Assembly (NCBI GenBank): GCA_959606905.1
Contig: CAUHML010000008.1
Location: 30,663-94,662, forward strand
Direction: 5' to 3'
DNA from: an uncultured Bacteroides sp.
GTDB lineage: Bacteria; Bacteroidota; Bacteroidia; Bacteroidales; Bacteroidaceae
Length of the DNA: 64,000 nt
Shown here in pieces: positions 8,576-33,995 of this stretch (within the stretch, counting starts at the first letter, position 1; each line of letters starts with the position of its first letter). The translations under genes were made by a program, and so were the position numbers. Below the pieces are notes generated by a model. That model was not told where the DNA came from and searched no databases. It saw only the letters and a program-made list of their open reading frames with translations.

Positions 8576-10618
8576 ATGAATATGAGAAATTTAAAGTATT
8601 TTTCTTTTGGAATCATCAGTCTGATTTTCGCTTCATGTATAGAAGAAAAAAACTTATCTATTCAGAATGAGGAAGAACTGGAAAATGCAGAACTTGGTTT
8701 ATCTACAGATTTTTCTCTAAAAACAGAGAGGAGCATATCTATTACTGCTACTGACGGAGAAGGAAAAACACAGAAAGGGGTAAAAATGGGGATATTTGCA
8801 AGTCAACCTTACACGGGCGAAGGAATTATCTCTGTCGAACCTATTTTTGTTGGATATACAGATGCTTCCGGTAAATTGAATGCGGATGTAGTCGTCGCCA
8901 ATAATCTTTCTAAAGTCTTTGTTGCTCCACTTACTGCAGGATATGGGCAGGTGCAGGAAGTGGATGTACGGAATGTTAGCTCATTAAATTTTCGTGGAGT
9001 TGCTTTCCCGCAGGCTGCTACTGTGACTCGTGCTGCTGCAGATGAAATTCCACAGATTTTTGGTCCAATCAGCGGGCTTTATCAATTATTTATTCCTTAT
9101 AAAAATGACGAAGTGAATGAGAATGGTATACCTGTTCAGGGAGGTTGCTCGTTGGTGTCAAAAGAACAACTTTCTCCGGCATTGATTAATAAGATTGATA
9201 GTTGGTATCCGGAAAAAAAGAATGTTCAGACAGCGGATTTATCAAAGAATTCTGATTTGAGAATTGTTGATGAGGACGGAGCTCAGGTTTGGGTGACTTA
9301 TGTTGGAGACGGTGGTTTCTGTGTGGATAATCAAACTGTTTATAATTCATTGCTATATTATAATTATAAAGAGGGGGATTTAAAAAGTGATGTTTATAAA
9401 CTTCACATGACTATGTTACTGCCTAATACAAATCAGTTGCAATGTCCGTCAGGCTTAAAAGTTCAGTTGCTTTATTGGGATGGCTCGAAATATAGTAAGG
9501 TTTTTCCAAATGGTACACGAATCGGGTTTGCCGTTGCGCGTGCCGGATTTAAGAAAGACGGTACTGCTATAACAGATAAACTTGCATATAGTTTTAAGAA
9601 TACGATGAGTCCTGCCGTTAATGGGGATGTGAATGGAATGTATTACTCTACTCCAGAATTGAATACATGGGGTAAAACTCAAGCAGTAACTCGTGAATTG
9701 GACGGCTATAATTGTTGTGTGACAGGTTTTGATATCCGTCCTTTTGGAGACAGGAAGGCTGATTATGATTTCAATGATGTAATGGTAAAGGTAACGGCTA
9801 CTCCTGAAAAAGCTATTAGGCCGGGTGAAGATATTCCAGTTGATGAAGATGTGACTGTGGCTGAATCAATTCATGGTACGTTAGCTTTCGAAGATCAATG
9901 GCCTAATCCCGGTGATTATGATTTAAATGACTTTGTAGTGAACTATACATATGGTGTCTATAAAAATGTGGATAATAAAATTAACGGTATCCAAATGCGG
10001 TTTAGACCGATTGCTAAGGGTGCGGCAAGTTATACAAAAATTGGTTTTGGGATAGAACTACCGTTGGCTTCGAATGATATTGATGTAGCAGAAGTAGAGG
10101 GAGCTATTTTAGAAAGTGGAGACTCAAACGCTACTTTCATTATTTGGGAAGATATAAGTAAACCTTTTGCTGGTGGTGAAACAGGTTTTATCAATACAGA
10201 AAAAGGCTCTTCTTTTGTTTCGGCAGAAGAGTTGGTTGTGACTATCCCATTAAAAGCAGTAACTAGCAATGTTTCTATGATGAAGTTTAATCCGTTTATA
10301 TTTGTCAATAAGCGTTCGCATGAGATTCATTTAACGGATTTTGCTCCGACATCAAAAATGGATATGAATTTGTTGGGAAACGGGAAAGATTGTTCGGATG
10401 TATCGAAAGGTTTTTATTTCCGAATGAAAGATATGTATTGTTGGGCATTGGATTTTCCACGAACTTCTGCAGATGAAGCGGCATGGAGATATCCGAAAGA
10501 AAAATCATCAGTGGTAAAAGCTTATAAGAATTACAATAAATGGGTAACAAACAAGACAGATTTATCTTGGTTTGACTCTACTATTCCGGGTAATGTAGAT
10601 GGAAGTGAATTGTATTAA
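8576..10618 (+). CDS. LruC-domain lipoprotein 1
   Basis: The 680-residue protein has a lipoprotein signal ending in IFASC (Cys21) and an acidic stretch right after the lipidated Cys (IEEKN). That placement is compatible with surface export in Bacteroidota. A carboxypeptidase-like sandwich is likely at about 50-130. Residues about 340-410 end in ADYDFNDV, and the LruC/DUF4842 domain starts near 437 with FEDQWPNPGDYDLND and runs to about 650. The repeated DYDxND pattern looks like a Ca-binding loop, but this is inference. Function is unknown. The window holds two other LruC lipoproteins (17283-19664 and 31641-33995). Only this one has the double DYDxND arrangement and no central beta-helix-like region. 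Confidence 0.82.
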   Translation: MNMRNLKYFSFGIISLIFASCIEEKNLSIQNEEELENAELGLSTDFSLKTERSISITATDGEGKTQKGVKMGIFASQPYTGEGIISVEPIFVGYTDASGKLNADVVVANNLSKVFVAPLTAGYGQVQEVDVRNVSSLNFRGVAFPQAATVTRAAADEIPQIFGPISGLYQLFIPYKNDEVNENGIPVQGGCSLVSKEQLSPALINKIDSWYPEKKNVQTADLSKNSDLRIVDEDGAQVWVTYVGDGGFCVDNQTVYNSLLYYNYKEGDLKSDVYKLHMTMLLPNTNQLQCPSGLKVQLLYWDGSKYSKVFPNGTRIGFAVARAGFKKDGTAITDKLAYSFKNTMSPAVNGDVNGMYYSTPELNTWGKTQAVTRELDGYNCCVTGFDIRPFGDRKADYDFNDVMVKVTATPEKAIRPGEDIPVDEDVTVAESIHGTLAFEDQWPNPGDYDLNDFVVNYTYGVYKNVDNKINGIQMRFRPIAKGAASYTKIGFGIELPLASNDIDVAEVEGAILESGDSNATFIIWEDISKPFAGGETGFINTEKGSSFVSAEELVVTIPLKAVTSNVSMMKFNPFIFVNKRSHEIHLTDFAPTSKMDMNLLGNGKDCSDVSKGFYFRMKDMYCWALDFPRTSADEAAWRYPKEKSSVVKAYKNYNKWVTNKTDLSWFDSTIPGNVDGSELY

Positions 10619-12071: not shown

Positions 12072-12776
12072 ATGGATAATTTACAGAAATATAAACCAAA
12101 CGATAAGATGATTGATCTTATCAGTGATAACTATTCTTTGTTGCAAGTGATGAGCCGTTTCGGACTTTCGTTGGGATTTGGTGATAAAACGGTCAAAGAA
12201 GTTTGTGAACTTAACGGAGTAGACTGTCGGACTTTTCTTATTGTTGTCAACTTTATAGCTGAAGGTTTTTCCCGGTTGGATGGAGATGACGGAGAAATTT
12301 CCATTCCAGGATTGATAGATTATCTGCGTCAGGCGCATATTTATTTTCTTGATTTCTCCCTTCCCGCTATTCGTCGTAAACTGATTGAAGCGATAGACTG
12401 TTCTCAGGATGATGTCGCTTTTCTTATTCTCAAATTCTTCGATGAATATACAAGGGAGGTGCGCAAGCACATGGATTATGAAGAAAAAACAGTGTTTAAG
12501 TATGTGGATTTACTGATTAAAGGGGATGCTCCTAAAAACTACCAGATCAGTACGTTCTCTAAGCATCATGATCAAGTAGGGGAGAAGTTGACAGAACTGA
12601 AAAATATCATAATTAAATATTGCCCTGCCAAGGCGAACGAAAATTTGCTGAATGCAGCCCTTTTTGATATTTATGCTTGTGAGGCGGGATTGGAATCCCA
12701 TTGCAAGGTTGAAGATTATATTTTTGTTCCTGCCATTCTGAAGTTGGAAAGGAGGATAAGAGAAAATGAAAAATAA
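12072..12776 (+). CDS. Hemerythrin-domain, RIC/YtfE-like protein
   Basis: The 234-residue cytoplasmic protein has an N-terminal ScdA_N-like region (about 12-70, 'SLLQVMSRFGLSLGFGDKT') and a four-helix hemerythrin domain (about 80-225). Candidate diiron ligands are His89, His133, Glu137, His165 or His166, His210 and Glu214. Their order and spacing match those of E. coli YtfE with an offset of about five. YtfE/RIC proteins repair Fe-S clusters after nitrosative or oxidative damage or release iron. The N-terminal cysteines (45, 52) are placed differently from the CC pair of YtfE. It overlaps the following LuxR gene by 11 bp, so it may also act as the sensor for that regulator (inference). Confidence 0.8.
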   Translation: MDNLQKYKPNDKMIDLISDNYSLLQVMSRFGLSLGFGDKTVKEVCELNGVDCRTFLIVVNFIAEGFSRLDGDDGEISIPGLIDYLRQAHIYFLDFSLPAIRRKLIEAIDCSQDDVAFLILKFFDEYTREVRKHMDYEEKTVFKYVDLLIKGDAPKNYQISTFSKHHDQVGEKLTELKNIIIKYCPAKANENLLNAALFDIYACEAGLESHCKVEDYIFVPAILKLERRIRENEK

Positions 12777-13377
12777 CGAAGTTATTCGAATAGCCATTGC
12801 AGAAACTTCTGTGATTATTCGTGGAGGACTGACTGCGGCATTGAAACGTCTTCCTAATGCAAAGGTGCAGCCAATAGAGTTACTTTCTGCTGAGGCTTTG
12901 CATGATTGCTTGCGGACACAATGCCCTGAAATGTTGATTGTAAATCCGACTTTTGGCGATTATTTTGACGTAAATAAGTTCCGGGAAGAAGTATCTGGCA
13001 AAAAGATACGTTTGATAGCATTGGTCACTTCTTTTGTGGATGCTTCATTGCTAAGTAAGTATGACGAGTCGATCTCCATATTCGATGATCTGGAAACTCT
13101 TTCCAAGAAAATTGCCGGTTTGTTGGATATGTCTTCGGAAGAGGATGAAGTGGATAGTCAGGACGCACTTAGCCAACGGGAGAAAGAGATTGTGATCTGT
13201 GTGGTAAAAGGTATGACTAATAAAGAAATTGCGGAAAAATTGTTTTTATCGATTCATACAGTGATTACTCACCGGAGGAATATTAGCAAAAAATTGCAAA
13301 TACACAGTGCAGCTGGTCTGACTATCTATGCTATTGTAAATAAGCTGGTTACGCTTAGCGATGTGAAAGATTTGTAA
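12766..13377 (+). CDS. LuxR-type regulator with degenerate receiver domain
   Basis: The 203-residue DNA-binding protein has a receiver-like fold at residues 5-120 and a LuxR/GerE helix-turn-helix at about 138-200 (LSQREKEIVICVVKGMTNKE, then IHTVITHRRNISKKL). The phosphate-accepting Asp is replaced by Asn60 (LIVNPTF), the acidic pair near the N-terminus is not present, and the usual Lys is missing. It therefore cannot be a standard phospho-switch. The start overlaps the hemerythrin gene by 11 bp, which implies translational coupling. A signal from the diiron protein is a reasonable hypothesis. Target genes are unknown. Confidence 0.82.
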   Translation: MKNNEVIRIAIAETSVIIRGGLTAALKRLPNAKVQPIELLSAEALHDCLRTQCPEMLIVNPTFGDYFDVNKFREEVSGKKIRLIALVTSFVDASLLSKYDESISIFDDLETLSKKIAGLLDMSSEEDEVDSQDALSQREKEIVICVVKGMTNKEIAEKLFLSIHTVITHRRNISKKLQIHSAAGLTIYAIVNKLVTLSDVKDL

Positions 13378-13943: not shown

Positions 13944-14591
13944 CTATTTATAATTACCGGATACTGTTTTTTCCACCTTTTTCCATTCTTTTGTTTCAAA
14001 ATCATAGGTTTTGATAACTTTTGCAGGACATCCGGCACATATAGAATAGGAAGGTACGGAATGGCTGACTACGCTTCCGGCAGCTACTACACAGTGCTTC
14101 CCTAAAGTTACTCCTGGAAGAATAACTGAGTTAGCGCCTACCCATACGTCATCTTCAATAACAACGGGCTGTGTGTTGACCCCTTGTTCGTCGATCATCT
14201 TTTTCACATCCTGATAATTATGATTGAGTCCTGTTACGGTCACATTTTGGGCTAGATTAACGTGATTGCCGATATTGACCGGACCTATAATCGTATTTCT
14301 TAATCCGACACGGGTATAATCTCCGATAGTCAAATCACCAACTGCATTATTAAGGCAGGAGAAATCTTCAACCACAGAATATTTTCCTAAAAAGAAATGG
14401 TTGAAAGGAGGAAGATCTTTGCGTACACTCCGATAGATCACAGAGCCTTTTCCGCGTTTCAGGTAGATGAAATCAAAGAGGCGTATCCACCAGTTTGGAC
14501 GAGTTTTGACAGGATGCATAATAAGCCGATACACTGCTTGCTTTAAACTGGGTTTTTCTTTAATTCGTTGCTTAAATGTCTTTTTCTCCAT
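13944..14591 (-). CDS. Left-handed beta-helix acyltransferase (WcaF/CatB-like)
   Basis: The 215-residue cytoplasmic enzyme has hexapeptide repeats from about residue 85 to 195 (for example IGDYTRVGLRNTIIGPVNIG and VIEDDVWVGANSVILPG). Its catalytic His is probably in GLNHNYQD. The CAGCPAKVIKTY end is characteristic of sugar O-acetyltransferases acting in polysaccharide synthesis. It is the last gene of a four-gene module and overlaps the glycosyltransferase-like gene by 49 bp, implying coupled translation. The likely role is acetylation of a sugar in a surface glycan. The acceptor is not known. Confidence 0.83.
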   Translation of the reverse strand: MEKKTFKQRIKEKPSLKQAVYRLIMHPVKTRPNWWIRLFDFIYLKRGKGSVIYRSVRKDLPPFNHFFLGKYSVVEDFSCLNNAVGDLTIGDYTRVGLRNTIIGPVNIGNHVNLAQNVTVTGLNHNYQDVKKMIDEQGVNTQPVVIEDDVWVGANSVILPGVTLGKHCVVAAGSVVSHSVPSYSICAGCPAKVIKTYDFETKEWKKVEKTVSGNYK

Positions 14592-15484
14592 ATTGAATGT
14601 TTTTTCTTTTTGTCTTCCACCAAATAGTCCGGAATAGCCAGACTATAAGTAACTAGTAGGCCGAAGAGTATAAGCCACCAGCCGATAGATAATGCCCGGT
14701 TATATCCTGTAATCAGCAATGTCCATACACTGACGAAGATACACATTTTTAGCGGAGAAGGTATTAGATGCTGTACTATTCGGTTACAGAAATTCCAGTT
14801 TCCTTCCAAAAGCGAAGGGAAGAAATAAGAGGCTGTCTTTCGGAGGCGTCTCCTATATGGGTGAACCGGACTTGATTGACAGTATACAATAGCATCCGGA
14901 AGGTAGTCAATATATACATTCTTCCGAAATAACTTCCGTTCGATATTGGTTTTAGAGCTTCTCAGATTGTTTTGCAACCATTCCAAGTCGATAGCCATAT
15001 TGGTTCCGGATAAGTTAGACGACAGTCCGAATTGTGTATTTCCAGCTCTGAAAAGGCTGTTCTTTATTTCTTTGCATATAGCACGGAAACGATTACAGAA
15101 ACCTTTGCGATTTTCAATAACTGTGTGTAATTGAATGGCTTGTATTCCGGCATCATACGCATTGTAGATTTTCTCCAGAAAGAGTGGAGACAGAGAAATG
15201 GCTGTGTTTGATAAGATAAGGATCAGTTGATAGTGTTCTCTGTCAAGAGTATTGATTCCTTGATGCAAATCATTGTATGTGAAGAATTCGTAAGATTCTT
15301 CACGATAGATTACGGGAAGCGGACTTTCTTCCGGAACGAGGATAGCACAATGGTATTTCTTTTCAGCTTTTGGATAGACAATGCGCTTGAAGTGCGATGC
15401 AACTGCCAATACAAAGAGGTATAGAATAACAATCCCCACGAAGAAGAATACCAGGTCATCTATTATGTAAATGTAGGTGCTCAT
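14543..15484 (-). CDS. Membrane glycosyltransferase-like protein (GT2-related, degenerate)
   Basis: The 313-residue protein has an N-terminal membrane helix (about 8-30), a GT2-like cytoplasmic domain (about 40-225) and two C-terminal helices (about 240-285). 'HPYRRRLRKTASYFFP' is at the place of the QxxRW-type acceptor motif. Where GT2 enzymes have a DxD metal site before 'L(S/T)P.FL', this protein reads LSNTAISLSPLFL. The acidic residues are lost. It may be inactive as a transferase, or be a structural partner of the upstream sugar transferase. It lies 13 bp after that gene and overlaps the acetyltransferase gene. Confidence 0.6.
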   Translation of the reverse strand: MSTYIYIIDDLVFFFVGIVILYLFVLAVASHFKRIVYPKAEKKYHCAILVPEESPLPVIYREESYEFFTYNDLHQGINTLDREHYQLILILSNTAISLSPLFLEKIYNAYDAGIQAIQLHTVIENRKGFCNRFRAICKEIKNSLFRAGNTQFGLSSNLSGTNMAIDLEWLQNNLRSSKTNIERKLFRKNVYIDYLPDAIVYCQSSPVHPYRRRLRKTASYFFPSLLEGNWNFCNRIVQHLIPSPLKMCIFVSVWTLLITGYNRALSIGWWLILFGLLVTYSLAIPDYLVEDKKKKHSIWRKRHLSNELKKNPV

Positions 15485-15497
15485 CGTCTGTAAAAGG

Positions 15498-16664
15498 TTA
15501 TACGTTCTCTTTTTGAATAAATGCAGTAACTGTTTTCAGAATAATTTTGATGTCCAACCAGAAAGAGAATGTCTTTGCATACTTGATATCCAACTGTTTG
15601 CGTTCTTCCGCAGATAACTTGCCGGCTTCACCTCTTTTTTCTACTTGCCATAGCCCGGTAAGTCCTGCCGGTCCCATAAAGCGGTCGATATGTTCATCAC
15701 TAGTTAGTAATTCGGCTTCGTAGAGTGGGAGAGGGCGATTACCTACTATGGACATATCTCCTTTTAAGATATTAATAAGCTGTGGTAATTCGTCAATACT
15801 ATATTTACGAATGAAGCGCCCTATCTTCGTTATTCTAGGATCATTTTCCAACTTGACAAAAGCATTACTTTTCTCTTTCGATTTTTTGTGAATATAATCT
15901 TCTTCGGAAATAACGAAATCATCAGATATCAGGAGAATTTCTTCTTCGTCCACTTTTTGAATTTCTTCGGTCTCTTGCTCTTCTCCCCAAATATCTTCTT
16001 CTTGTTCTTCCTCTTGCTGATACTGGTTGAGCGTATTGAAATCCTTCAAATGTTTGTCGGCATCGGTATACATGGACCGAAATTTGAGAAAATCAAAAAT
16101 CAGATAATTGCTTCCTACACGTTTGGATTTGTAAATAATAGGACCTTTGCTTTCTAGGCGGATAGCCAGTGCTGTGAGTATGAGAAGTGGGGAAAGACAT
16201 AACAATGCCATTCCTGAAAAGACGATATCAAAAGCTCTTTTCCATAAAGGTAGGCGGAAAGCATTCAAGTTTTGCGTCTTGAGTTGAAGTGCCTGTATCT
16301 TTTGATCTTTTCTATGTTTCAGGAAGGTTGACAGAGCCTGCAAGGATTCCGGATTCGTTTCGTATTTAATGGTATTATTTATACCGGCTTTGAGATATTC
16401 TGGAGCTTCTTCTTTAGATAAAGAATCAATGACGAGTACCATATAAAGTCCCGGATACTTTTTGCGCATATAATGAATATTTGCAATATCTTGGGATAGA
16501 TTTATCTGTTCGAAAAACAGAGCTGTATCGTATTTTTCCCGTATCTTGTCTAGTACCTTAATTGCTTGATTACAATTAGATGCTGCATAAAATACCCCTA
16601 TGCTAAGTTTAGAGAATAGGTTTATAGTCTTGCTATCTTTGCCTATGTAAACAAAATATTGCAT
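15498..16664 (-). CDS. Undecaprenyl-phosphate sugar-1-phosphate transferase with receiver-like N-terminus
   Basis: The 388-residue membrane protein would start glycan assembly by moving a sugar-1-phosphate onto undecaprenyl phosphate. Residues about 136-388 are the bacterial sugar transferase domain (WKRAFDIVFSGMALLCLSPL helix, KFRSM, IRKYSIDELPQLINILKGDM, GLTGLWQV). Residues 1-115 look like a response-regulator fold without the phospho-Asp (TALFFEQ at that strand) and replace the usual membrane-spanning N-terminus. An acidic insert at about 216-262 (QEEEQEEDIWGEEQETEE) breaks the catalytic domain and is not usual. A complete response regulator is encoded 15 bp upstream, so control of initiation by that regulator is plausible. 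Confidence 0.85.
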   Translation of the reverse strand: MQYFVYIGKDSKTINLFSKLSIGVFYAASNCNQAIKVLDKIREKYDTALFFEQINLSQDIANIHYMRKKYPGLYMVLVIDSLSKEEAPEYLKAGINNTIKYETNPESLQALSTFLKHRKDQKIQALQLKTQNLNAFRLPLWKRAFDIVFSGMALLCLSPLLILTALAIRLESKGPIIYKSKRVGSNYLIFDFLKFRSMYTDADKHLKDFNTLNQYQQEEEQEEDIWGEEQETEEIQKVDEEEILLISDDFVISEEDYIHKKSKEKSNAFVKLENDPRITKIGRFIRKYSIDELPQLINILKGDMSIVGNRPLPLYEAELLTSDEHIDRFMGPAGLTGLWQVEKRGEAGKLSAEERKQLDIKYAKTFSFWLDIKIILKTVTAFIQKENV

Positions 16665-16679
16665 ATAGAGGATCTGGTG

Positions 16680-17045
16680 TTAATCGATAATCTTTTTGAT
16701 TCGAATTTTGAGTTCTAGTGGATTGAATGGCTTTAAAATATAATCTTCCGCTCCTTCTTCCAGCAATCTGATTCTTTCGGTTGTACTTTCTTCACTAGAT
16801 AACATAACGATAGGTATTGACTTGAATAACTCGTTATTTTTCATATATCTTAGAAATTCGTCACCTGTCATTAACGGCATACGGATGTCTGAAATGATAA
16901 GATCAGGTACGTTACCTTCATTCAGCCATTCTATTGCTTTAATGGGATCTTCCAAATAGGTAAAATCATAATCCTTACCTAGGTATATACCGGCAACTTT
17001 TCCAATAGTCGCTTTATCATCGACTAGTAATATTTTTTTCTTCAT
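16680..17045 (-). CDS. Single-domain response regulator (CheY-like)
   Basis: The 121-residue cytoplasmic protein is a receiver domain only. The acidic pair Asp9-Asp10, phospho-acceptor Asp53 (LIISDIRMP), Ser in IVMLSSEE and Lys in YILKPF are all present, so it should be phosphorylatable. It has no DNA-binding output. No histidine kinase gene is near, so the kinase is elsewhere. Position as first gene of the polysaccharide module, next to a sugar transferase with a receiver-like domain, suggests output through protein contact, for example pairing of the two receivers (inference). Confidence 0.88.
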   Translation of the reverse strand: MKKKILLVDDKATIGKVAGIYLGKDYDFTYLEDPIKAIEWLNEGNVPDLIISDIRMPLMTGDEFLRYMKNNELFKSIPIVMLSSEESTTERIRLLEEGAEDYILKPFNPLELKIRIKKIID

Positions 17046-17097: not shown

Positions 17098-17132
17098 CTG
17101 TCACAGATTATTTATGACAGTTTGCAAATATA
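17098..17132 (-). promoter_or_regulatory. Promoter and leader inverted repeat of the polysaccharide module
   Basis: The minus strand has TATATTTG at 17125-17132. Just downstream, CTGTCA (17098-17103) and TGACAG (17115-17120) form an inverted repeat at the 5' end of the transcript. It could be an operator or a leader hairpin. Confidence 0.45.
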
Positions 17133-17282: not shown

Positions 17283-19664
17283 TTATTTGTACACTTTAGA
17301 TGAATCGAATGTTTTCCACCATTCCTGATTCTTAACACCACCGCTAGTTACCCAATCTGTAAACAAGGAATAAACAGTTTTTATATTTACATACTCTAAA
17401 GTCCACTTGAAGTCAGTAGGGACCATGATTCCCCATGCCAGATTGTCTTTACTGATGTAATATTTCTTACCGGAAACAGAACTATTATCATTATTTCCTC
17501 CAAATAAATCAGTATTAGCTAGTTTGGTTGGTTGATAGCCGATAACATGAATTTCTTTACGATTATTTCTATTTCCTTCCACAAAAATGAAAACATTCAG
17601 TTTGTTGATGTTTAATTCATCCGGAGAAATCGGATTGCTGAGTTTTATGGTGAAACTGATGTTCTTAACATTCGTATTGTTTGAATGATTGGCAAAGGTG
17701 TTAATTTGTTCATACCGATCTCTTCCCAATGCTTTGTGCGCATCGTCGAATAACGGAATAACTGCATAATCTTGTCCGTTCTCAATCTTATTACTGTTCA
17801 GGTTGAAGCTTTTGATAAGAGAGTTGTCACTAAATTCAACAGGTTGCATAATTGCGCTGGCAGGAACACCGTCCAACATGATAGCAGCTCCAATACTTTT
17901 AGTAGCTCCGGTAGCGGCTAAATCGATGCTTAATTTGAATTCTTCCACTTTATTATTCTTATTGAGAGAAATCGTTCTTTCTTTGATAATCATGACTAAA
18001 TCATTCATATCATAGTCTCCATATAATGGCCATTGATCTTCAAATAAATATGCATAATTATGTGTATCATCCACTATGATCGGGAATTTAGGTTCCTCTG
18101 GTTCTTCTCCCTTATTTCCTTCGTTCTTTGTTCCTGTACAAACTTCGATAGTTACTTTGGATTCTCCTATTTTTGTAATATATGCGCCGTTCTGTACATG
18201 AAAATTAGTCCAATGTGGACTTTTCTCTACATGATTATCTGATTCAATAGCCAAATTGCCGTCATAAGTAAATCCTTGACCGGCTATAATGGGAGATTTT
18301 ATCATAGAGGTGTTTTCACCTTTTCCATAGAACGTAGCATAACCAGGAGGTATATCCAGTCTTGTAGTTGCTTCCAGCATAGAACCGTTATTCAAGTTAA
18401 CAACTCCGTTTTGGAACTCCATTTTAGGTGCCTTGATATATCCTTGGGTTAAGTTTAACTTAATTCCGTTTGCGTAGAAGGAAATAGTGGCTTCCATACT
18501 GCAACTATTGTTGACGGTAGGATTAGTGAAACTGATCGTCTCAAAAATGATTATATTTTTGTTTGTGATAACAGCATCTGAGTTTGCAATCATTTTTTTT
18601 CCATAAATCTCTCCGTTATTTTCTAATGAGAAATTAGACGGAAGGTTAAACTCTCCTTCAAGTTCAATCTTATTGTCGTTGATAATTTGGGTATTTGAAT
18701 TAATTGCTATGTCCTTGCTTGTTATAGTACCTCCGTTGTAGAGTGTAGCTCCCGAATGTAATGTCATAGTGTTTGTAACTGATACATTACCCCAGTTTCT
18801 TAATGCCGCAGGTGCTCCGTTAGTAAATGATATATTTTCGGCTTCAACGTTTCCTTCATCCATGACAGTCAGCATGGAGTTTCTTATAAAAGTCATCACT
18901 CCGGATGCTTTTATTTTAGCATTGTCCATAACTATGATTTCAATACCATTCTGGAACTGGAATGTAGTCGGAATTGTCCATGTTGCATCAACGTAAACTT
19001 TGGTTTTAATCTCACCGTCATATCCGTCAAATTTGAATGTACCGTTATAGTCAGAGGTAATTTTATAGGAAGCGTCACGCAGTAAAGTTGTTCCTTGCAT
19101 TTCTGTAATTTCTTTTGCTTCACTTGGTATGGAAGTATAAACCGGTTTCTCGGGTGAAACAGCTCTTGTGGTAGCGGTACGGCTCATTAACACTCTGTTT
19201 TGAGCAGCAGATTCTTGATAGTAGAGTTTACAGGTAAAGTTGTCATTATCTTCCGGCACATCAAACAGATATACCTCTACACGTCCTCTGGGATCAGTCT
19301 GCTTTATATAAATACCTTTTTGCGTAGGTAGCAGAGTGATAGCAGCTGTAGCTTTAAAGTTATTCTCTTTATTTGCTGTCCTTGTAGCCAGTACAGATGC
19401 GTTTTCATTAGTAAGAGGATCTTCTGTATATATTTCTACTAAGTAGGAATATAACCCTCCTTCTTCATCTTTAACTTCGACTGTGACATTTTCTGTTTTG
19501 ATTGTGCTCCAATCAAAACCATCAGGAGCAGCAAAACCGTCTCCCATTGGGTTGGACGTTTCGTAGGAGGGATCATACAAATCCTTCCCCGAGTCAACAC
19601 AACTAAACAGGATACCTCCCATTGCTATTGCAATGATTGGCATGAAATGAATTGTTTTTTTCAT
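17283..19664 (-). CDS. LruC-domain lipoprotein 2 with central beta-helix-like region
   Basis: About 793 residues. The signal peptide ends in LFSC (Cys22), followed by VDSGKDLYD, very like the CVDNEKNLFD of the third copy. A small sandwich domain (about 40-125) leads to a long region (about 190-450) of irregular repeats with NNG, NNGS and ENNGEI turns, the look of a parallel beta-helix. The LruC/DUF4842 domain (about 535-780) opens with FEDQWPLYGDYDMND. I chose the ATG at 19664. The frame could start at 19667 or 19697, but only the shorter starts give a normal signal peptide. Function is unknown. Surface location and glycan or matrix contact are inference. Confidence 0.8.
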   Translation of the reverse strand: MKKTIHFMPIIAIAMGGILFSCVDSGKDLYDPSYETSNPMGDGFAAPDGFDWSTIKTENVTVEVKDEEGGLYSYLVEIYTEDPLTNENASVLATRTANKENNFKATAAITLLPTQKGIYIKQTDPRGRVEVYLFDVPEDNDNFTCKLYYQESAAQNRVLMSRTATTRAVSPEKPVYTSIPSEAKEITEMQGTTLLRDASYKITSDYNGTFKFDGYDGEIKTKVYVDATWTIPTTFQFQNGIEIIVMDNAKIKASGVMTFIRNSMLTVMDEGNVEAENISFTNGAPAALRNWGNVSVTNTMTLHSGATLYNGGTITSKDIAINSNTQIINDNKIELEGEFNLPSNFSLENNGEIYGKKMIANSDAVITNKNIIIFETISFTNPTVNNSCSMEATISFYANGIKLNLTQGYIKAPKMEFQNGVVNLNNGSMLEATTRLDIPPGYATFYGKGENTSMIKSPIIAGQGFTYDGNLAIESDNHVEKSPHWTNFHVQNGAYITKIGESKVTIEVCTGTKNEGNKGEEPEEPKFPIIVDDTHNYAYLFEDQWPLYGDYDMNDLVMIIKERTISLNKNNKVEEFKLSIDLAATGATKSIGAAIMLDGVPASAIMQPVEFSDNSLIKSFNLNSNKIENGQDYAVIPLFDDAHKALGRDRYEQINTFANHSNNTNVKNISFTIKLSNPISPDELNINKLNVFIFVEGNRNNRKEIHVIGYQPTKLANTDLFGGNNDNSSVSGKKYYISKDNLAWGIMVPTDFKWTLEYVNIKTVYSLFTDWVTSGGVKNQEWWKTFDSSKVYK

Positions 19665-19835
19665 CATAATTAATATTGCTTGATTGTTTGTAACCAAAAT
19701 CTAATGCAAAAATAGCCGCATGTCTTATATTTAGGCCGTATTTTCTGTTATTTTATGTAGGAAAAACAATTGAATTTCCGTTTCGGTTCTATTTTAGCTC
19801 TAGTAGGTGCGATTAAGACTTTTTATATGATAAGA

Positions 19836-29621: not shown

Positions 29622-31481
29622 ATGTTGATAACCATTATTATTCTCGTTCTTTCGGCTATCTTTTTTGTAAATGGTAAAATCCGTTCGGATATTGTGGCGT
29701 TATGTGCGCTGGTTGCTTTACTTGTCTTTCAGATATTAACTCCTGATGAAGCCCTTTCGGGTTTCTCCAATTCGGTAGTTATTATGATGATCGGACTGTT
29801 TGTGGTAGGAGGTGCTATTTTTCAAACAGGGTTGGCAAAGATGATAAGTTCGCGTATTCTTAAACTTGCGGGAACGAGTGAAATTCGTCTGTTTCTATTG
29901 GTGATGTTGGTGACTTCAGCTATCGGTGCATTTGTCAGCAATACCGGAACAGTAGCGTTAATGCTTCCTATTGTGGTTAGTCTGGCGATGAGTGCTGGGA
30001 TGAATCCGAGCCGCTTGCTGATGCCGTTGGCATTTGCAAGTAGTATGGGAGGCATGATGACATTGATTGGTACTCCGCCGAACCTTGTGATACAGAACAC
30101 ATTAACTTCGGCAGGACTCGAACCGCTTTCTTTCTTCTCTTTTCTGCCTGTTGGCATTGTTTGTGTGATTGTCGGTACATTGGTATTGATGCCGCTTAGT
30201 AAATGGTTTCTGTCTAAAAAAGGACAGAAGAATGACAGTAACCGTTCAGGAAAATCGTTAAAGCAGTTGGTCAATGAATACGGGCTTTCCAGTAACCTGT
30301 TTCGTTTGCAGGTGATAGGGGATTCCCGACTCTTGGGAAAAACGATTATTGATTTGGATATACGACGCAAATATGGATTGAATATAATGGAAGTCCGTCG
30401 TGGGGATGCATCGCAACATCGTTTCCTGAAAACTATCACGCAGAAATTTGCGGCACCGGATACGGTTTTGCAAGTAGAAGATATTCTGTATGTGACAGGA
30501 GATTTTGAGAAAGTACAACTGTTTGCTGAAGATTATCTGCTCGATATATTAGGTGACCATGCTACCGAGGAAACGAAAAATACAACTAGTTCTCTTGATT
30601 TTTATGATATAGGTATTGCTGAAATAGTATTGATGCCTGCGTCTAATTTGGTAAACCAGACAATTAAAGAAGCCGGATTCCGTGATAAATATAATGTGAA
30701 CGTTTTAGGTATCCGTCGTAAAAAGGAATATCTGTTACAGGATTTGGGAAATGAGCATATTCATAGTGGCGACGTGCTTTTGGTACAAGGCACTTGGGGA
30801 AATATCGCCCGTCTTAGTAAGGAAGACTCTGATTGGGTGGTATTAGGTCAGCCTTTAGCCGAAGCTGCTAAAGTAACTTTAGACTATAAAGCTCCGGTGG
30901 CTGCTGCTATCATGGTGTTAATGGTGTTAATGATGGTATTTGATTTTATCCCGGTTGCTCCGGTTACGGCTGTTATGATTGCGGGTATATTAATGGTACT
31001 GACAGGGTGTTTCCGTAATGTAGAGGCCGCATACAAAACGATAAATTGGGAAAGTATTGTACTCATTGCAGCAATGTTGCCTATGTCGTTGGCATTGGAG
31101 AAAACAGGAGCGTCGGAGTATATATCCAATACATTGGTGAGCGGATTGGGTTCCTATGGACCATTGGCTCTGATGGCGGGTATCTATTTTACTACTTCAT
31201 TGATGACTATGTTTATCAGTAATACGGCTACTGCGGTACTGCTGGCACCTATTGCTTTGCAAAGTGCTATACAAATCGGGGTTAGCCCGATTCCTTTCCT
31301 GTTTGCTGTGACAGTGGGGGCAAGTATGTGTTTTGCTTCTCCATTCTCTACGCCGCCTAATGCATTGGTAATGCCTGCCGGACAATATACTTTTATGGAT
31401 TATGTGAAAGTAGGATTACCGTTACAGATTATCATGGGAATTGTGATGATATTTGTTTTGCCTTTGATCTTCCCTTTTTGA
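29622..31481 (+). CDS. SLC13/DASS family permease with two TrkA-C domains
   Basis: The 619-residue inner-membrane transporter has two helix bundles (about 1-200 and 425-619), each with the family SNT signature: VSNTGTVALMLP and ISNTATAVLLAP. These form the Na and anion sites in VcINDY. Between them, at about 210-300 and 320-405, are two TrkA-C (RCK-C) domains, which bind small ligands and regulate transport. The substrate may be a dicarboxylate, sulfate or another anion and cannot be determined. It is transcribed alone, with a promoter and terminator of its own. Confidence 0.88.
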   Translation: MLITIIILVLSAIFFVNGKIRSDIVALCALVALLVFQILTPDEALSGFSNSVVIMMIGLFVVGGAIFQTGLAKMISSRILKLAGTSEIRLFLLVMLVTSAIGAFVSNTGTVALMLPIVVSLAMSAGMNPSRLLMPLAFASSMGGMMTLIGTPPNLVIQNTLTSAGLEPLSFFSFLPVGIVCVIVGTLVLMPLSKWFLSKKGQKNDSNRSGKSLKQLVNEYGLSSNLFRLQVIGDSRLLGKTIIDLDIRRKYGLNIMEVRRGDASQHRFLKTITQKFAAPDTVLQVEDILYVTGDFEKVQLFAEDYLLDILGDHATEETKNTTSSLDFYDIGIAEIVLMPASNLVNQTIKEAGFRDKYNVNVLGIRRKKEYLLQDLGNEHIHSGDVLLVQGTWGNIARLSKEDSDWVVLGQPLAEAAKVTLDYKAPVAAAIMVLMVLMMVFDFIPVAPVTAVMIAGILMVLTGCFRNVEAAYKTINWESIVLIAAMLPMSLALEKTGASEYISNTLVSGLGSYGPLALMAGIYFTTSLMTMFISNTATAVLLAPIALQSAIQIGVSPIPFLFAVTVGASMCFASPFSTPPNALVMPAGQYTFMDYVKVGLPLQIIMGIVMIFVLPLIFPF

Positions 31482-31640: not shown

Positions 31641-33995
31641 ATGAAACAAAACATTGCAAAAGTATTAACCTTTTCTTTATTGGCAACTTCTGCCGTTTTT
31701 ATCAGTTGTGTGGATAATGAGAAAAATCTGTTTGATGCAGAACAACTGAGACAGATTTATGAAGAAACTTTTCCGGTAAAGAATATCGATCCTGACGGAG
31801 ACTGGACTATGTCCCGTAGTGTAACTGCACACGTGACGGTTAATGGAGATTTAGGAGAGGATTATCCGATACGGATATTTGATGCGAATCCTTTAAGTCC
31901 GGAAAGTAATGCCAAACTTTTAGCAGAAGGTGTTGCAAATAGAAGTACATCTTTTAATGTTGTAATGGATTGTGCTACTGCACTCGATAGAGTATTTGTC
32001 GCGCGTGTAGACAGAAAAGGACATTATCTTGTGCAACCGATCGCTATTGAAAATGAAGAGGTGAAGGCCTGTTTCGGAAATAAAGAAGGTAGTACTACTT
32101 GTTCTATCACGAGAACTATAACAGATATACCTGCTATGGCAGCTCCTTATACAGATGAGTATATTAGTAATAAAAAGGCCTATGCTACTATTATTAAGTC
32201 CGGCTGGGATCTTGGCTCTGGATTTGACCAGTATTCTGCCTATAATCTTCCTGTTTTCAAGGAAAAGGAACGTTGGTTTAAGATTCAGGAAGGGGGCTTT
32301 AGGGCAAGATTTACTACAGGAGGAACTTGGGGTGGAGCTAATGCCGTGAAAGTGATTGTTCCTGAAGGAAGTACATGGGTGATTGAAAACGAAAATCAAT
32401 TCAGTGATATAACGGAGGTAATAGTTGAAAATGGAGGAAAAATAGAAATAACTAGAAATGCCAGTTTGATATTGACTCGGGCTTCTTATATAACTGTAAT
32501 GCCGGGTGGTAGTATTATAGGTGAGGGAGATATTTCAATAACAAATAGTTCTGCCGGGTTTAGTAATTATAATGCTGGTATGATTGATTGTTCCCGTTTA
32601 AATATTGATGGCGGTGGAAGTGGGGTTGATTTCATGAATTATGGAACGCTTAAATTGAATTCTTACAATGCATCTACAAGCGGTACAACACTGATAAATC
32701 ACGGTGTTATTGAGGCTGGTAGTATTAATGGTAATAACAATACCAATGTTAAGAACGGCTGTTATATGAATGTGGCAGGAATGTTTCAGTTCGGTACACT
32801 TATAATGGGGCATACTTCTGAAGCTATTTGTGGGGAGTTGGGTTATAACGGAAATAACAATGATATTGTGATGGAGGCACAATCAATACTGACCTGTACA
32901 GGTAAAGCTAGTCTATATAGGCATGTAGTCGGTCCCACAACGGGAACGGCTTTGTTGAGAATTCATACGATTGCTAATATTTCAGGGCTCATTGAATCAA
33001 ATTCGAAAGTCACGAATAACATTATTTGTGAGATAACAGACCAGACCTCTTCTAATGAAAAAGAGCAATCACTGTGGACTCCTTTCGACTGGTTAGTATA
33101 TAAAGGCTTACAGAATTCCGCCACTTATTGCAATCCGGGAAAAGCAGATTTTTTGCTTCCTGCTGATGAAGATGGGTGTATAAAAGAAGGATATGGTTCT
33201 GATGATACCCCCGATGACGTGGAGATTCGGAAAGCCGTTTATTCCTATGCTTTCGAAGATAATTATCCCAAAGCAGGCGATTATGATTTCAATGATATTG
33301 TATTGAACGTGACTTTACCCGTTGCCGGTAATGAAGTGAAAGAATTGAAATACGTGGTTGACCTTCAGGCTGTGGGTGCCATGAAGCAATTAGGTGCCGG
33401 ATTAAGAATACTGGGAATAAATAAAAGTAATGTGGAAACGGTTGACTTTGGAGCCGGCGCCGCTCAACGTGACGGTTCTTTGTCTGCTTCCCGTATATTT
33501 GAAGATGCATCTTATGAGACGACTGGCAGTGAACTTGTCATTCCTTTGTTTGGAGATGCACATTCTGTATATGGATATACCGGAACACAACGTCCTATGC
33601 TGAATACTGGAAATGCAAGTACATCTCTAACAGATATATATACTCTTGAAGTGATAATCAAACTTAAAAATGCCGTATCCATTCCCAGTGTAACAAACTG
33701 TTTAGACTTCTTTATAGCATATCAGGGTACTGGTGAAAAGAGAACGGAGATTCATTTGAATCAATTTAATTCGGCAACGGCGAATGGTCAGTTGGCAGAT
33801 AATAACGTGCTTGAGGTTATCAAGGTAGTCAATAATACATGGGCTCTTTGCGTTCCTGATAAATTCGCATATCCGACAGAAAGAACTGTGATAACAGAGG
33901 CGTATGCTAAGTTTGCGGACTGGGCACATGACCAGAGTACTAATACCGATTGGTATAATATGCCTTCAAGTAGTGATAAAGTGATAGAATACTAA
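31641..33995 (+). CDS. LruC-domain lipoprotein 3 with central beta-helix-like region
   Basis: The 784-residue protein has a lipoprotein signal ending in VFISC (Cys23) and then VDNEKNLFD. A sandwich domain at about 50-140 is followed by an Asn- and Gly-rich repeat region (about 225-440, with turns such as NGGKIEIT, NYGTLKLN and NHGVIEAG). The LruC/DUF4842 domain begins near residue 535 (FEDNYPKAGDYDFND). Domain order and the residues after the lipid Cys match the protein at 17283-19664 rather than the one at 8576. The two therefore form a closer pair. The function is unknown, and surface exposure is inferred. Confidence 0.8.
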   Translation: MKQNIAKVLTFSLLATSAVFISCVDNEKNLFDAEQLRQIYEETFPVKNIDPDGDWTMSRSVTAHVTVNGDLGEDYPIRIFDANPLSPESNAKLLAEGVANRSTSFNVVMDCATALDRVFVARVDRKGHYLVQPIAIENEEVKACFGNKEGSTTCSITRTITDIPAMAAPYTDEYISNKKAYATIIKSGWDLGSGFDQYSAYNLPVFKEKERWFKIQEGGFRARFTTGGTWGGANAVKVIVPEGSTWVIENENQFSDITEVIVENGGKIEITRNASLILTRASYITVMPGGSIIGEGDISITNSSAGFSNYNAGMIDCSRLNIDGGGSGVDFMNYGTLKLNSYNASTSGTTLINHGVIEAGSINGNNNTNVKNGCYMNVAGMFQFGTLIMGHTSEAICGELGYNGNNNDIVMEAQSILTCTGKASLYRHVVGPTTGTALLRIHTIANISGLIESNSKVTNNIICEITDQTSSNEKEQSLWTPFDWLVYKGLQNSATYCNPGKADFLLPADEDGCIKEGYGSDDTPDDVEIRKAVYSYAFEDNYPKAGDYDFNDIVLNVTLPVAGNEVKELKYVVDLQAVGAMKQLGAGLRILGINKSNVETVDFGAGAAQRDGSLSASRIFEDASYETTGSELVIPLFGDAHSVYGYTGTQRPMLNTGNASTSLTDIYTLEVIIKLKNAVSIPSVTNCLDFFIAYQGTGEKRTEIHLNQFNSATANGQLADNNVLEVIKVVNNTWALCVPDKFAYPTERTVITEAYAKFADWAHDQSTNTDWYNMPSSSDKVIEY

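Follow-up and report, generated by a model that had tools for sequence, protein, structure and literature searches.

How undecaprenyl phosphate is rationed among competing glycan pathways is an open question, and four genes of an uncultured Bacteroides sp. raise it in a particular form: what does a response regulator (RR) without an output domain do when it is encoded directly beside the first committed enzyme of such a pathway? The genes lie in a stretch of 64,000 nucleotides (the window; positions 30,663 to 94,662 of contig CAUHML010000008.1, GenBank assembly GCA_959606905.1) and specify, in this order, the RR, a monotopic phosphoglycosyl transferase (PGT), a GT2-like membrane protein and an acetyltransferase-like protein. 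In our view, to which we assign a probability of roughly 0.6, they initiate a dedicated exopolysaccharide pathway of the Wzy type in Bacteroidota, and this pathway would be switched at the protein level by a signal passing from a histidine kinase to the RR and from there to the PGT. An apparently soluble histidine kinase with a receiver domain of its own (REC-HK) would phosphorylate Asp53 of the RR, and the phosphorylated RR would bind the PGT and stimulate (less likely inhibit) it in transferring the first sugar-phosphate to undecaprenyl phosphate. The receiver-like N-terminal domain of the PGT would probably serve as the main docking or dimerisation surface, a contact with the catalytic domain also being possible; the phosphotransfer, the fact and place of RR-PGT contact, the direction of the effect and the identity of the glycan are inferred from the evidence given below. 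The chain-length, Wzy-like and TolC-like genes that would complete the pathway form one operon in many relatives and would occupy a separate locus here.

All four genes are on the minus strand. The RR and PGT genes are 15 bp apart, the PGT and GT2-like genes 13 bp, and the last two genes overlap by 49 bp, which bears out the order and the spacing of under 50 bp given by an earlier reading of this DNA from its letters and open reading frames (ORFs) only (the sequence-only reading). PF00072 is the sole Pfam match of the RR, as expected from the earlier claim that this protein has no DNA-binding output, and residues D9, D10, D53, S83 and K105 are kept, leaving its phosphorylation site intact.

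The catalytic domain of the PGT matches PF02397 at residues 142-383. It carries the signature of monotopic PGTs, a DX12P re-entrant helix motif (D146/P159) and an Asp-Glu catalytic dyad (D291/E292), both invariant or nearly so; the signature is as given in PMC12802240. In the AlphaFold2 (AF2) model of the PGT (56 sequences; mean predicted local distance difference test score, pLDDT, 85.3; predicted template-modelling score, pTM, 0.59), residues 1-120 adopt a receiver fold with block means of pLDDT of 90-97; its elements run from strand 3-7 through helix 105-133 and are followed by helix 140-171. A Foldseek search with this model placed PglC (8e37/8g1n) and WbaP (8t53) at the top, with which the window PGT shares its catalytic fold; unlike it, the matched chains have no receiver domain. 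The receiver domains of TadZ (4lda), HupR and NtrX came next. Profile alignment (HHalign) of the N-domain with the family of the adjacent RR gave a probability of 98.9% over 115 columns, and in two relatives (L112 and L114) Pfam itself scores the N-domain as a receiver, above threshold. In the window protein the phospho-Asp position is occupied by Glu52, and the acidic pair and the Lys are absent. Across 56 aligned rows this column holds D in 32, E in 16, N in six and G in two, and among 15 rows drawn from the loci it holds E in 14 and D in one (L015). The N-domain is a pseudo-receiver, i.e. a receiver fold without the phosphotransfer residues; the earlier description of a receiver-like N-terminus lacking Asp was thus accurate. 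An alignment of TIGR03025 from residue 34 had pointed to the Rossmann-like domain of unknown function (DUF) of large monotopic PGTs (monoPGTs), a possibility ruled out by the profile and fold results.

Gene pairing is evidence that the RR belongs with the PGT. Loci were gathered by searches with the PGT only, and their ORFs were scored with hidden Markov models (HMMs) of the N-domain, the catalytic domain and the RR; catalytic matches below 80 bits were not listed, whereby L032 and L036 were left out. The catalytic scores were two-humped, with 259-368 bits for intact members of one clade and 144-201 for 21 other PGTs. We defined the clade as the loci with at least 250 bits plus two with broken frames (L013 and L021); L088 and L094, which are duplicates, were removed, as was a second L021 fragment. 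This cut was set after the scores had been seen, and the catalytic HMM was trained partly on the same loci; neither used the RR. An RR gene was found immediately upstream, on the same strand, in 71 of the 72 clade loci (gaps of -23 to 124 bp) and in none of the 21 other PGT loci, 19 of which had at least 400 bp of upstream DNA available. In the single exception (L092/L116) the RR gene is located approx. 2.5 kb upstream of the PGT gene, with an LruC gene between them. The sequence-only reading would, by its own criterion, have been refuted by homologues that mostly lack a neighbouring regulator; within the clade the opposite was observed. The persistence of the pair across many distant relatives suggests a signal acting on the enzyme and not on its gene.

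The search for the orphan kinase, proposed by the sequence-only reading, yielded a candidate. A kinase of the REC-HisKA-HATPase type was found at one place in each of 22 of 121 Bacteroidaceae genomes (at most 16 candidates scored per genome). In this sample, presence was called at E <=9.9e-61 (best match) for the clade PGT, 1e-40 for the chain-length-determinant-like protein described below (PCP), 1e-25 for the RR and 1e-45 for REC-HK; counts are given as both/first only/second only/neither, and the p-values are not corrected for ancestry. RR and REC-HK co-occur at 20/0/2/99 (p 6.5e-21), all 20 RR-bearing genomes having the kinase, which is partial in G005. The two genomes with REC-HK and no RR are one that is 56% complete (G029) and one in which the kinase is a stop-containing fragment (G078). 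Presence is patchy within five genera (g2, g5, g8, g11 and g13), yet kinase and RR agree in each of the 26 listed genomes except G078, which makes shared ancestry alone a weak explanation. The genes can also be close together: REC-HK is directly upstream of the RR gene in Paludibacter (L027; 35% identical), and in G040 (L153) the order is glycosyltransferase (GT), epimerase-type short-chain dehydrogenase/reductase (SDR), REC-HK, PAS protein, RR, PGT. In G001, the nearest genome compared (92% of sampled 31-letter words common with the window; same locus, L133), REC-HK is encoded approx. 75 kb from the RR, at a place outside the window. REC-HK is thus probably the orphan kinase, and phosphotransfer from it to the RR would follow. 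Another candidate, the only kinase of G001 whose Hpt domain passed the Pfam cut-off, was set aside, given the occurrence profile of REC-HK. In G001 the REC-HK gene adjoins an SDR gene of the UDP-glucuronate-decarboxylase kind (UDP-glucuronic acid decarboxylase 1, PDB 4gll, E 3.3e-117), and such a gene is directly upstream of REC-HK in four of the six regions read, which hints at a glycan containing xylose.

The genes that follow the pair in other taxa indicate which pathway it serves. Loci of Prevotella, Phocaeicola, Parabacteroides and others run RR, PGT, TolC-like (PF02321), PCP, Wzy_C and then GTs, where PCP is a 720-aa protein similar to chain-length determinants that scores below the curated cut-offs. 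The RR gene thus accompanies that of the PGT with which a Wzy-type pathway begins. Of this pathway the window holds the initiating genes only; in its lineage the RR, PGT, GT2-like and acetyltransferase genes stand alone. The export half was located elsewhere in two genomes: in G001 the TolC-like, PCP, Wzy_C and GT genes are approx. 0.64 Mb from the RR-PGT locus (L143), with no PGT or RR gene in the 20 kb read around them, and in G033 they are approx. 67 kb from the PGT gene (L144). In G056 and G075 (L146 and L147), which are of the same genus, RR, PGT, TolC-like, PCP, Wzy and GT genes form one run, with LruC upstream. PGT and PCP, found in 19 and 17 of the 121 genomes, co-occur at 16/3/1/101 (p 4.5e-16; PGT alone in G019, G040 and G108, PCP alone in G084), and RR (20 genomes) and PGT at 18/2/1/100 (p 2.8e-18). 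Operon structure and co-occurrence together place the RR-PGT pair in this pathway. An Omp85-domain protein is encoded upstream of the TolC-like gene of G001 (L143:12578-13834, minus strand) and could belong to the outer-membrane exit.

Several observations weigh against our reading, and the first group of them concerns the site at which the RR acts. Bare clade PGTs (239-265 aa), which have no pseudo-receiver, keep an adjacent RR in five of six loci, so a site other than the pseudo-receiver must also be possible. The RR could instead act on the catalytic domain or its oligomer, the pseudo-receiver being only a dimerisation or positioning module that replaces the helix bundle and DUF of large monoPGTs. 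We regard this as unlikely, though it is the alternative to be taken most seriously: a kinase gene lies directly upstream of the RR gene in three of these bare loci (L111, L113 and L115; the two run against Pfam, L113 and L115, have HisKA-HATPase-REC-Hpt kinases), a finding that counts for our main reading as well, the clade is recognisable from its catalytic domain alone by the scores given above, and in Myxococcus xanthus the RR EpsW was modelled touching the catalytic domain of the PGT EpsZ as well as its DUF (PMC12802240). Against it stands the contrast between long and bare enzymes. All 65 clade PGT ORFs of at least 300 aa have an adjacent RR (N-domain recognised by HMM in 62 and by length only in L076, L077 and L093; L013 has a broken frame, and the broken L021 also has an adjacent RR), whereas bare PGTs are looser, with an RR in six of nine when three plasmid-borne ones are included. 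This difference favours a part of the pseudo-receiver in RR binding.

Plasmid records were taken separately (seven matched, five examined, these not scored with the HMMs). In those of Parabacteroides distasonis, Hymenobacter and a Flammeovirgaceae the RR gene immediately precedes the PGT gene; for the bare PGT of Salinibacter it is approx. 4 kb away on the other strand, and for that of Aureispira no RR was seen among the genes listed in the stretch shown, whose gene table is partial. A natural RR-PGT fusion of 510 aa (P0080), known from one metagenomic contig and possibly a sequencing artefact, counts by its occurrence in favour of our reading; it gave an AF2 model (26 further rows, a thin alignment) with a mean pLDDT of 71.4, a pTM of 0.34 and a poor catalytic domain, in which no confident RR-PGT interface was seen. 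G120 has PGT and PCP without an RR or REC-HK of this kind at the thresholds used. At its locus (L056/L152), three consecutive genes, for an RR, a stand-alone pseudo-receiver-like protein and a bare PGT, head a TolC-like/PCP/Wzy operon; this run, together with the presence of an RR beside every counted N-domain PGT, favours a role for the pseudo-receiver.

The second group concerns the RR. Asp53 is absent in two of 54 aligned RRs (L103 and L110), the acidic pair is absent in another of them (L108), and the RR of L116 has no phospho-Asp; in addition, the co-occurrence described above partly reflects shared ancestry. Furthermore, two genomes of the genus Bacteroides, G003 and G092, keep the RR (66% and 63% identical, Asp53 present in both) and REC-HK without a clade PGT or PCP, so that the RR may have another target. 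That the RR and its kinase control some other protein or a phosphorelay step, with the RR-PGT adjacency reflecting co-expression only, nevertheless seems improbable to us: the pairing is near-strict over several classes while the downstream genes vary, the RR lacks an output domain, and the PGT encoded next to it carries a receiver homologue. In G003 and G092 (L148 and L149) the RR gene is retained between asparaginase-type and LuxR genes, and no LruC, PGT, GT2-like or acetyltransferase gene lies between these two. The pathway switched through the PGT remains our preferred interpretation, and of the direct post-translational control put forward by the sequence-only reading we retain the action on the enzyme, as the best reading of the pairing, but not an exclusive contact between the two receivers, given the bare enzymes and the two genomes G003 and G092.

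It might also be argued that the Bacteroides operon, having lost its export genes, is a decaying relic in which the four remaining genes have no function. The state of the GT2-like protein could be cited in support: it has no DAD-type motif and no QxxRW-like segment, its N-terminal part is shortened relative to its homologues, and in both L007 and L013 its ORF is split. Short forms also occur in L039 and L047, a longer homologue in G001 carries a DAD motif and a QRKRW-like segment, and the long homologues of L011 and L147 have NSD where DAD is expected. The protein termed "GT2-like" by the sequence-only reading thus lacks motifs of its longer homologues and is probably a non-catalytic yet conserved pseudo-glycosyltransferase. 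Such a relic is very improbable, however, because all four genes look maintained by purifying selection, the GT2-like one included. The median ratios of nonsynonymous to synonymous substitution rates (dN/dS; Nei-Gojobori method, nine Bacteroides-type loci, dS near saturation, pairs with dS outside 0.05-2 or undefined dropped) were 0.027 for the RR (22 of 36 pairs), 0.046 for the PGT (12 pairs), 0.095 for the GT2-like protein (14 pairs) and 0.046 for the acetyltransferase (18 pairs). Moreover, the export half exists at another locus in G001 and G033, and in B. thetaiotaomicron the apparent orthologues of the PGT and RR genes, BT0523 (sugar transferase) and BT0524 (termed its cognate RR), are raised about twofold without iron (-Fe/+Fe 2.0 and 2.1; PMC10434189). 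We take these two as orthologues because their order relative to BT0519-20 and the trp genes is the one found here. BT0519-20, apparently the hemerythrin and LuxR-type genes, are raised 16-20-fold under the same conditions (PMC10434189).

The mechanism was thought by the sequence-only reading to be undescribed, which no longer holds. In M. xanthus, phosphorylated EpsW, a single-domain RR, activates EpsZ post-translationally (November 2025; PMC12802240), which makes direct control of a PGT by an RR a known class of mechanism and a precedent for our reading. Both systems pair a single-domain RR with the monotopic PGT that initiates an exopolysaccharide pathway (Wzx/Wzy in M. xanthus), the two being encoded at the same locus. 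EpsZ, however, belongs to the large monoPGTs and has a four-helix bundle and DUF where the Bacteroidota enzyme has a pseudo-receiver. The window PGT does not have the four transmembrane helices and DUF without beta-hairpin of that class: no four-helix bundle was seen in its AF2 model, and one long helix (140-171) precedes the catalytic core. The RR gene is directly adjacent here, and the kinase looks to be REC-HK rather than the chemosensory kinase of Myxococcus. The main text of PMC12802240 contains no word starting with "bacteroid"; it cites O'Toole et al. (2021, PNAS) for receiver-domain fusions of small monoPGTs, which likewise combine a receiver domain and a PGT in one chain. A further parallel is PleD (receiver, pseudo-receiver, diguanylate cyclase), in which a phosphorylated receiver works via a pseudo-receiver on an enzyme; PleD is one chain, whereas here receiver and pseudo-receiver are on separate proteins (PMC12632262). 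No paper describing the Bacteroidota system was found in the literature searched, most subscription journals lying outside the search, and the build of its enzyme, the phylum and the assigned kinase look new.

A more specific version of our model is tentative, and we consider it somewhat less probable than its negation: the phosphorylated RR would dock on the pseudo-receiver built into the enzyme, completing a pathway of REC-kinase, single-domain RR and pseudo-receiver-PGT, and an insert before the catalytic dyad would gate the active site. The insert itself, noticed in the sequence-only reading, is real: the segment from FRSM to DPR comprises 76 residues in the window PGT (identical to the protein of L038) and 30-95 in 69 scorable clade members, vs 14-30 in nine scorable controls (12 could not be scored). 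Its core, EEILLISDDFVISEEDY, recurs with variation in relatives, including distant loci, which rules out low-complexity noise. In the AF2 model it forms, with moderate confidence, a strand-turn-strand-helix unit (strands 244-246 and 251-253, helix 254-267), while residues 214-218 and 220-238 have a pLDDT below 50. A segment of at least 55 residues is absent in 21 of the 69 scorable members, 20 of which are listed with an RR, so the insert is not required for the pairing; L092, the only clade locus without an adjacent RR, has it. The proposed gate would thus be an acidic hairpin-helix in many members and Cys-rich in two, the PGTs of L093/L117 and L095 having a zinc-ribbon-like Cys-rich segment in place of the acidic insert.

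If our reading is correct, a two-component signal acting on the first committed enzyme would provide a fast control point, conserved in a phylum whose members abound in the human gut, and what was found for EpsW/EpsZ would hold in a second phylum too, for an enzyme built differently. With a kinase assignment at hand, the model can be tested in B. thetaiotaomicron. The positions of the features are collected in Table 1.

Table 1. Features of the RR-PGT locus in the window (feature, coordinates, strand, basis)
Single-domain response regulator (RR), 121 aa, intact phosphorylation site Asp53, no output domain	16680..17045	-	PF00072, E 1.4e-21
Monotopic phosphoglycosyl transferase (PGT; sugar transferase), 388 aa, N-terminal pseudo-receiver	15498..16664	-	PF02397, E 1.6e-60
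PGT pseudo-receiver with its long last helix, residues 1-133, Glu52 at phospho-Asp position	16266..16664	-	AF2 model, profile match
PGT segment with acidic insert, residues 199-274, FRSM to DPRIT, core EEILLISDDFVISEEDY	15843..16070	-	Length and sequence comparison within the clade
GT2-like membrane protein, 313 aa, probably a non-catalytic pseudo-glycosyltransferase	14543..15484	-	PF13632, residues 98-280
Hexapeptide acetyltransferase-like protein, 215 aa	13944..14591	-	PF00132, E 3.4e-15
LruC-domain (DUF4842) protein, directly upstream of the RR gene	17283..19697	-	TIGR04456, PF16130
Candidate -7 promoter element (Bacteroides type) TATATTTG, 80 bp upstream of the start of the RR gene	17125..17132	-	Sequence

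The candidate promoter element TATATTTG was judged against TAnnTTTG, which we take to be the Bacteroides -7 consensus. The nearest relatives of the window PGT are Bacteroides records, and the best NCBIfam models for the acetyltransferase, WbbJ and WcaF, both score below their cut-offs. At 12072-13377 (plus strand) the window encodes a hemerythrin-domain protein followed by a LuxR-type regulator, which adjoin the module in most Bacteroides loci read. Of 63 loci scanned, many of them short of upstream DNA, 20 have a same-strand LruC-like ORF upstream, and LruC genes also adjoin the system in the distant loci L111, L113, L115 and L116. This recurrence suggests that LruC proteins are linked to exopolysaccharide; literature searches on LruC gave nothing bearing on its pairing with RR-PGT. 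The window itself encodes three LruC/DUF4842-like proteins, at 17283-19697 (minus strand), 8576-10618 (plus) and 31641-33995 (plus), the last of which was detected only by a custom HMM (124 bits).

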